64,000 nt of DNA from Saccopteryx bilineata (lineage: Eukaryota > Chordata > Mammalia > Chiroptera > Emballonuridae), in assembly GCF_036850765.1 (NCBI RefSeq), contig NC_089491.1, positions 94,582,740 to 94,646,739 on the forward strand, written 5' to 3'. Positions 58,165 through 59,499 of this stretch are shown piece by piece; within the stretch, counting starts at the first letter, position 1; each line of letters starts with the position of its first letter. Made by a program: the position numbers and the translations under genes. The notes below the pieces were generated by a model that did no database searches, was not told the DNA's origin, and worked only from the letters and a program-made list of their open reading frames with translations.

Positions 58165-58724
58165 GGCATGCTGGGCCCAGCGCCAAGGTATGACAGGAAG
58201 GTCATGCAGAGTGTGAGCTGCTGGGTGAGGAGCCGCACGTCGTGCACACGGGTCAGCAGGGGCTCCCTCAGCACCCACCCAGCTCCTACTTTGGAGAAGT
58301 GCAAACCCTGGGGTTGTTTTCAGTGGAGGTGCAGTTTGAATGAACTCACACAGAGGAAGCAAAGTCACAGGATTTATTACTTACAGATCCCAGGAGAGGG
58401 GAAGGGCAGGGGAAGGAGCACAGAGTGCTGGGGGAAGGGCAGCCTCCATCCCAGGTCCCAAACCCACCCCCCAGGATACAGAGAGCAGGTAGCAAGTATG
58501 TATTGCTTCAAAGGTGTTTGTATGAAAGACATTAACTCTTCTAGGGATCAACTCTAAGTGGTTTTATTAAAAGTTGCTTCTGAAACATCAACGTGGGAAT
58601 GTGGGATGGGAACCCTAATCTTGGGTTTTTATCCCATGCCTGGACTCTGGGCGAGAGCAGAGTTGTCACACTGTAGAACAGGAATGTCCTAGACAGCATG
58701 TCCTAAGGCTATTCCCTCATCGCT
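58165..58724 (-). mobile_element. 560-base LTR-like insertion inside cathepsin exon of unit B
   Basis: Unit A text CTTCACAGGAGTGACATAG is split in unit B: TTTCACAGG ends near 58164 and GGAGTGACATAG resumes at 58725. The insert carries two AATAAA signals on the minus strand and no long ORF, which suggests a solitary LTR, although I could not define its ends or duplication. Confidence 0.6.
58563..58568 (-). terminator. Poly(A) signal AATAAA for the unit B gene
   Basis: TTTATT on the plus strand gives AATAAA on the minus strand about 140 bases after the stop codon. A second AATAAA lies at 58373-58378. Both are within the inserted sequence. Confidence 0.55.
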
Positions 58725-58846
58725 GGAGTGACATAGTCCTCCTCTATGAAATCCACATAGAAGGGGATCTCCGTAAGGGTCCTTTCTTCATTTTGTGCTT
58801 CTGGTTCTGGAGTCGATTCATCTTCTACCTGGAATTCCTCATTGGT
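58709..58846 (-). CDS. Unit B coding exon 3: acidic tail and stop
   Basis: The exon starts TNEEFQVEDESTPEPE and keeps YVTP near its end, where unit A has YVTPVKDQ. The last codons (AMRE) and the stop at 58709-58711 come from the inserted sequence. The acceptor is TTTTTGAAG. Confidence 0.55.
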   Translation of the reverse strand, partial: TNEEFQVEDESTPEPEAQNEERTLTEIPFYVDFIEEDYVTPAMRE

Positions 58847-59499
58847 CTTCAAAAAAAAAAGGAAATAAGATGTTGTCAAATAAGAGATTATTTTGGTGAA
58901 ATATTAAGATTAGGAAACAGGAAAACCTTAGTCATCCATGCCACACTCACCATGTCACCAGGGGCATTGAGTGCCGTCATTAAACTCTTTTCTTTTTGGT
59001 GTCCTCCCAGAAGGAACTTTTTAACCACACTGCCAATGGTGCTCGTGACTATCTTCTTGAGTATACCTGTAATCTATAGAAAACATATAACCTGTCATAC
59101 TTATATATTTCCATTTAAAGCTAAGTTGCCTGCATTAAGGAGATTTGCAGACAGCGTGGAAGGGAAACCACGGCCAGGCATGGCTCCAGACCTCTGGGAG
59201 CTCTTCCCAGCACCCATACAGTGGGGACGAGTGCCCTACCATGTCAGTAATGGGCCCATGAAGCTATGGCCTTAGTAAGAGTCAGCCTGAAGAAGCTAGT
59301 CTCAGCTGTAAATCCCCAACAGCATGGACCAGTCTCCTCAGGGTCCCTCTGAACAGTTTTATATGTCACCAACCATGTTAAATAAACTTCCAGGTGCTGC
59401 CATCCGCTGATTGGCTTGTTGACTTAAACTGTGGTCGGGATTTGGAGCTGCTGAGGCTATTCCCAAGCAAAGAAGAGTCAGGAAGATTGCAGGATTCAT
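58709..59499 (-). CDS. Cathepsin-propeptide-derived secreted peptide precursor (128 aa), candidate new gene
   Basis: Exons 59374-59499 (126 bases), 58951-59073 (123) and 58709-58846 (138 with stop) splice in phase without a stop. The first two have exactly the lengths of the cathepsin exons they derive from. Residues 1-17 are a well kept signal peptide ([17 protein letters not shown]). Residues 43-66 form a cationic helix-like block (GILKKIVTSTIGSVVKKF) with hydrophobic residues every three or four positions. Residues 84-128 are strongly acidic (about 15 Asp/Glu, 2 Arg). No protease domain follows. ERFNIN and GNFD motifs are gone, so a CTLA-2-like inhibitor fold is unlikely. Known antimicrobial-peptide precursors often join a signal, a cationic amphipathic peptide and an acidic pro-piece. 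Function is inference. A decaying pseudogene remains possible. Confidence 0.5.
58951..59073 (-). CDS. Unit B coding exon 2: cationic amphipathic segment
   Basis: The acceptor CTATAG and donor ATG|GTGAGT are intact. The 41 codons end MTALNAPGDM, matching [10 protein letters not shown] of unit A, but the first 29 codons are almost unrecognisable against unit A. They read as a Lys-rich helix with two KK pairs. Confidence 0.55.
59374..59499 (-). CDS. Unit B coding exon 1: signal peptide
   Basis: The ATG at 59497-59499 opens [17 protein letters not shown], then APNPDHSLSQQANQRM. The first 75 bases closely match unit A. The rest has lost the tryptophans of the cathepsin pro-region. The donor ATG|GTTGGT is the same type as in unit A. 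Confidence 0.6.

Follow-up and report, generated by a model that had tools for sequence, protein, structure and literature searches.

Is a reading frame that begins like procathepsin L and ends before the protease the leftover of a duplicated enzyme gene, or does it code for a secreted protein of a different kind? The question is raised by a locus on the minus strand of a 64,000-nucleotide stretch of Saccopteryx bilineata DNA (contig NC_089491.1), hereafter called the window. Three exons (59499-59374, 59073-58951 and 58846-58709) join into a coding sequence of 387 nt including the stop, which yields the 128 residues of the window protein. The first two exons contribute 42 and 41 codons and, together with the open third exon, translate through, in agreement with the preliminary description of three exons spliced in phase into 128 open codons. 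The parts of the gene are the following:

59374-59499, minus strand: first coding exon, equivalent to cathepsin L exon 2; 42 codons, matching residues 1-42 of human procathepsin L in length
59446-59499, minus strand: part of the first coding exon that codes for the signal peptide, cathepsin-type by alignment
59074-59373, minus strand: first intron, with a donor shared with the cathepsin-like neighbour; identical to it at 128 of 177 aligned bases, while 123 further bases have no partner
58951-59073, minus strand: second coding exon, equivalent to cathepsin L exon 3; 41 codons
about 59002-59073, minus strand: stretch of the second coding exon that codes for the cationic period-4 helix
58847-58950, minus strand: second intron; 74 identities over the 100 bases that align with the intron of the neighbour
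58709-58846, minus strand: third coding exon, coding for the acidic tail; 45 codons and the stop

Direct reading gives, for the first intron, the donor GTTGGTGAC after the exon's final ATG, with GTTGGTAAC at the aligned place in the cathepsin-like neighbour, and the acceptor TCTATAG; the second intron has the donor GTGAGT and the acceptor TTTTTTGAAG. The presumed signal peptide is homologous to the cathepsin signal and conserved with it, and its cathepsin-type sequence points to secretion.

Descent from a cathepsin pro-region is indicated by a phmmer search, in which human procathepsin L in the PDB matches residues 1-126 of the window protein (E 5.3e-9); the first two exons (42 and 41 codons) align with it without a gap. 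The window also holds a neighbouring cathepsin L-like gene (34800-39897, minus strand), which is open in those of its exons that were read. With its first 206 residues as query, Pfam returns I29 at E 1.1e-13 and Peptidase_C1 at E 8.3e-41.

39227-39897 (39772-39897, 39471-39593 and 39227-39370), minus strand: exons for the pro-region of the cathepsin L-like neighbour, whose protease exons lie at lower coordinates

The blocks flanking both genes are co-linear (37.5 and 56.5, 39.3 and 58.8, 39.6 and 59.2, 41.0 and 60.9 kb), which indicates a tandem duplication. Upstream of both genes, 46716-47057 and 62036-62370 are 68% identical at a shorter offset of 15.3 kb; the duplication was therefore rearranged or accompanied by insertions. 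A 0.5-kb direct repeat (26306-26807 and 48014-48498, 70% identical) has an offset of 21.7 kb, similar to that of the cathepsin duplication, yet lies outside its aligned blocks. Between exons of the neighbouring gene sits an element with inverted ends (38016-38126 and 38506-38616, 89% identical), presumably mariner-like, and at 30766-31939 on the minus strand two adjoining long open stretches of 228 and 124 aa resemble the remains of one transposon-type protein.

The window protein contains no papain-type protease domain: the frame ends before it, and no Peptidase_C1 match was obtained in Pfam. Exon 4 matches the neighbour up to the VTP codons at 58725 and again from 58164 downwards, so that about 560 bases lie in between. 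The block and the remains of the protease beyond it are the following:

58165-58724, minus strand: block splitting cathepsin exon 4, where the match to the neighbour breaks; the final codons of the frame and its stop lie in it
58101-58164, minus strand: sequence in which cathepsin exon 4 resumes and runs into the following intron; 72.7% across 66 columns (E 1e-4)
56970-57046, minus strand: relic of the catalytic-Cys protease exon, with GSCW changed to GSRW
56497-56918, minus strand: relic of a later protease exon and intron

The procathepsin L match, the parent-like gene and the protease relics in the same window together bear out the earlier proposal that a duplicated cathepsin L gene had been cut to its pro-region. 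The block contains AATAAA twice, at 58563-58568 and 58373-58378, and may derive from a retroviral LTR. It has no inverted repeats of 10 or more, and one 10-nt direct repeat only. The latter, GTTGTCACAC, is perfect, stands at 58140-58149 and 58662-58671, 522 nt apart, inside the block or at its edge, and may be due to chance or be a target-site mark.

Relatives of the window protein were looked for among 5.8 billion proteins, and two were found at E 2.2e-26 and 2.1e-20: P0001 from Myotis myotis (125 aa, 51% identical) and P0002 from Rousettus aegyptiacus (130 aa, 47% identical), the latter in a cluster of 6 members and labelled 'Cathepsin L' in one source. A profile search added P0003, again from Myotis myotis (124 aa, 45% identical), and P0004, a 107-residue fragment whose contig reads through an unspliced intron. 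Three full-length relatives, two from Myotis myotis and one from Rousettus aegyptiacus, are 45-51% identical to the window protein, and the frame is open over the full length of P0001, P0002 and P0003. It follows that the frame is the product neither of chance nor of plain decay. The motif PEPEAQ is invariant across P0001, P0002 and the window protein and is present also in P0003 and P0004. The C-terminal ends of the relatives, TPAMRK and TPAMSK, resemble the TPAMRE of the window protein, so that, judged from protein alone, the same end was likely already present in the common ancestor. P0001 and P0003 are 86% identical to each other; between their helices there are substitutions and a gap of one residue. 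The family may be expanding in Myotis myotis. With Rousettus P0002 as query, only P0002 itself was recovered at E up to 10, and three protein searches, by methods needing shared five-residue words, gave no relatives outside bats.

What remains of exon 4 is not all read in the cathepsin frame. Relative to the neighbour's exon 4 there are gaps of 1 and 10 nt, and about 15 codons are therefore in a different frame, the old one being restored at EIPFYVDFIEEDYVTP.

approximately 58787-58831, minus strand: portion of exon 4 (QVEDESTPEPEAQNE) whose frame differs from that of cathepsin L, with the 1-nt and 10-nt gaps

A free DNA alignment scores 23 above a codon-only alignment, a gain that one of 300 codon shuffles reaches. 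Read in the other frame, the shifted stretch gives KMNRLQNQKHKMKKG, whose score against human cathepsin L is reached by 25 of 2000 shuffles; against the neighbouring gene the similarity of KMNRLQNQKHKMKKG is not significant (380 of 2000 shuffles reach the score), and in the PDB it finds no cathepsin, the single entry returned being tau at E 0.23. On the basis of the DNA alignment, the human comparison and an inferred back-translation of the conserved PEPEAQ from the relatives' proteins, it is likely that two indels shifted part of exon 4 and made the acidic tail largely from the basic tail of the cathepsin pro-region. The tail carries a charge of -13, -7 and -3 in the window protein, P0001 and P0002, respectively, against +4 in human cathepsin L and +3 in the neighbouring one. 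Its composition in the window protein, given previously as about 15 acidic and 2 basic residues, was recounted as 15 and 2. A separate acidic piece, as in the precursors of cationic-helix host-defence peptides, is thus present in all three of these bat proteins.

The segment ahead of this tail reads GILK-KIVT-STIG-SVVK-KFLL in the window protein, with its hydrophobic residues and Lys pairs at the positions reported earlier. The accompanying claim of an unbroken amphipathic-helix pattern is only partly right: the hydrophobic rhythm is real and recurs every 4 residues, which is not the period of an ideal helix. Indeed, over 24 residues the best hydrophobic periodicity lies at 88-92 degrees on two scales in the window protein, P0001, P0003 and P0002. 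In that order, the period-4 rhythm is reached by 30, 11, 31 and 11 of 5000 shuffles on the Eisenberg scale and by 0, 0, 0 and 4 of 5000 on a binary scale; human and neighbouring cathepsin L do not have it (2548 and 2045 of 5000 shuffles on the Eisenberg scale, 1084 and 1823 on the binary one). At 100 degrees, the angle of an ideal alpha-helix, the moment of the 24-residue block of the preliminary description is only 0.21; among 22-residue stretches of the window protein the highest moment is ordinary (reached by 634 of 2000 shuffles). An ideal amphipathic alpha-helix was accordingly rejected for the window protein and the period-4 rhythm adopted in its place. Starting earlier, 22-residue moments at 100 degrees are fairly high in P0001 (37 of 2000 shuffles) and P0002 (95 of 2000), and not high in P0003 (291 of 2000). 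P0001 has GVLK-GVLK-DVLQ-SVIG-SVVK-TLVG in this segment. The window protein shares 13 of 29 helix residues with P0001 and 9 of 30 with Rousettus; the rhythm therefore outlives the letters. The net charge of the helix is +4, +3 and +4 in the window protein, P0001 and P0002. An AlphaFold model of P0001 from a three-row alignment is of low confidence (mean pLDDT 51), and exon 3 modelled alone gives a single helix at pLDDT 79, which says little.

The rates of change along the gene were measured with the neighbouring cathepsin-like gene as reference for identity and dN/dS. Identity amounts to 43 of 54 nt in the signal, 43 of 72 in the rest of exon 2, 27 of 72 in the helix-coding stretch, 32 of 51 in the rest of exon 3 and 80 of 122 in exon 4, compared with 202 of 277 in the introns, a figure that counts aligned bases only and is flattered by the setting aside of 127 intron bases without a partner. 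The helix-coding stretch is less like the parent gene than the introns are (p 5.4e-8), and the signal is more like it than the rest of exons 2-3 is (p 3e-4). By the Nei-Gojobori method dN/dS is 1.75/0.65 in the helix, 0.17/0.48 in the signal, 0.50/1.12 in the linker and 0.47/0.77 in the rest of exon 3, all from few codons and near saturation. Taken alone, the helix-coding DNA shows no detectable similarity to the parent in a gapped test (159 of 1000 shuffles), so that sequence replacement is an alternative to fast substitution; if the helix has been partly replaced, dN/dS there is meaningless. The first two coding exons (249 nt) align with those of the neighbour without any gap; the third exon has two gaps (1 and 10 nt), and the two introns have seven. 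In simulations of a neutral frame in one lineage, the frame stayed open in 0.15-8.6% of cases across six settings.

Next to this origin, the likeness of the window protein to known systems can be considered. Fish piscidins and linear peptides of scorpions are made as precursors that consist of a signal, a cationic helix and an acidic C-terminal piece. The window protein shares with them the order of parts and the separation of charges; unlike them, it comes from a protease gene, and no sequence relation to them and no processing site were identified. In common with procathepsin L it has first two coding exons of equal length, a cathepsin-type signal and the end motif YVTP, whereas it lacks the protease domain, its exon 4 is split by a block and its tail is acidic rather than basic. 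CTLA-2, crammer and BCPI (MEROPS I29) are likewise free-standing and related to the cathepsin pro-region. In contrast to these, the window protein does not match the I29 profile and has neither the aromatic core nor the cysteine of CTLA-2; part of the sequence behind its helix is read in another frame, and the rhythm of the helix is new. The profile Inhibitor_I29 (PF08246) does not match the window protein at E up to 10, nor does it match P0001-P0004. Of the aromatic core, cathepsin W29 and W32 are replaced in the window protein, P0001 and P0002, in which Y40 is F, V and F, respectively; W47 and W52, scored in the window protein only, are replaced there as well. Membership among the I29 inhibitors was excluded on the missing profile match and the lost aromatic core. 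The Trp core is described for CTLA-2 and crammer in PMC4089206 and PMC3551606, the latter giving the motif of helices 1 and 2.

No cysteine follows residue 18 in the window protein, P0001, P0003 or P0002, and the Pfam families of defensins and cathelicidins match neither the window protein nor P0001-P0004, the mature part being free of cysteines. Among the antimicrobial families in Pfam none rises above the cut-off (Styelin, E 0.22, lies outside the helix), and no other binding domain was found by Pfam for the window protein or its relatives. With bat defensins and cathelicidins, as treated in the excerpted text of PMC10562630, the locus shares duplication and a candidate host-defence role. 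The period-4 rhythm recalls the (XXYY)n tetrads which, according to PMC11476776, serve as template for antibacterial helices made by design, for example (LLKK)3 and G(IIKK)3I-NH2; as in these designs, two of every four residues of the bat helix are hydrophobic, and the designs are short, whereas the bat helix occurs in nature, carries less charge and belongs to a longer precursor.

The reading that we favour, and to which we give a little under even credence, is that the tandem cathepsin L-like copy would code for a secreted precursor releasing a cationic, membrane-active defence helix, with the acidic tail neutralising it. Following duplication of the cathepsin L-like gene, the protease exons of the copy became relics, the block that splits exon 4 brought in the stop, and a frame shift probably made the tail acidic. 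The precursor would be secreted, its acidic tail would neutralise the charge of the helix until release, and a predicted proteolysis would free the cationic period-4 helix, which could then insert into microbial membranes; an arms race may be the cause of its fast change. Taken over its full length, the mature protein is acidic (-9/-7/-5), so activity would need cleavage; no processing site was identified. The conserved signal peptide, the hypervariable cationic segment and the acidic tail lend indirect support to the defence-peptide layout proposed at the outset. In a wider form, put forward only tentatively and from sequence comparison, these proteins may be a host-defence family of the bats' own that predates the split of pteropodids and vespertilionids, in which a block-truncated cathepsin L pro-region with a frame-shifted acidic shield would have had its helix remodelled by positive selection to give a natural membrane peptide of the (XXYY)n type.

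A possible if doubtful reading takes the gene to code for another kind of fast-evolving secreted protein, with a lipid- or partner-binding helix acting in saliva, milk, placenta or reproduction and no killing of microbes. A conserved signal, a hypervariable centre and a copy number above one would also fit reproductive or salivary proteins; the acidity of the whole mature protein and the charge-rich helix of Rousettus point the same way, and the propeptide-only protein closest in origin to the window protein, CTLA-2, is expressed in the mouse pregnant uterus according to PMC4089206. Against it, the features that stay constant (a net-positive helix, an acidic tail and an XXYY-type rhythm) are those of membrane-active precursors, and the lack of any other binding domain in the searches above argues against a lipid- or partner-binding protein.

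We consider it unlikely that the product is a propeptide-type regulator of cathepsin L similar to CTLA-2 or crammer, even though it descends from a pro-region and free-standing propeptide-like inhibitors are known from mouse, fly and silkworm (PMC4089206): Inhibitor_I29 is unmatched in the window protein and in P0001-P0004 and scores 1.1e-13 in the neighbour, the core Trp residues are replaced, the CTLA-2-like cysteine is missing and part of the sequence that follows the helix has left the cathepsin frame. A decaying pseudogene with a frame open by chance is very improbable. The relic state of the protease exons in the same copy and the read-through in the P0004 contig would suit decay, which is opposed by the three relatives of full length from Myotis myotis and Rousettus aegyptiacus, by the depletion of gaps in the first two exons and by dN lying below dS in the signal stretch.

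A literature search, made among open-access papers by titles and the starts of abstracts, found no description of such a gene, and the word 'cathepsin' is absent from the main text of the survey of bat antimicrobials (PMC10562630). In that survey, predicted antimicrobial peptides absent from APD3, the database of known ones, were dropped (section 3.1). If the favoured reading is true, the locus would add a host-defence family invisible to profile-based surveys, since the survey just cited discarded predictions without a counterpart in a known-peptide database; in the wider form the family would include pteropodids, in which a survey of bats recovered no cathelicidins. It would also document a stepwise conversion of a protease into a defence peptide, by duplication, truncation through a block, a charge-reversing frame shift and rapid remodelling of the helix, steps that can still be followed since the window also holds the parent gene, at a distance of 20 kb. 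Even without microbe killing, a fast-evolving family of secreted proteins that has been kept across bats and now goes under 'cathepsin L' or 'uncharacterized' would have to be described afresh.
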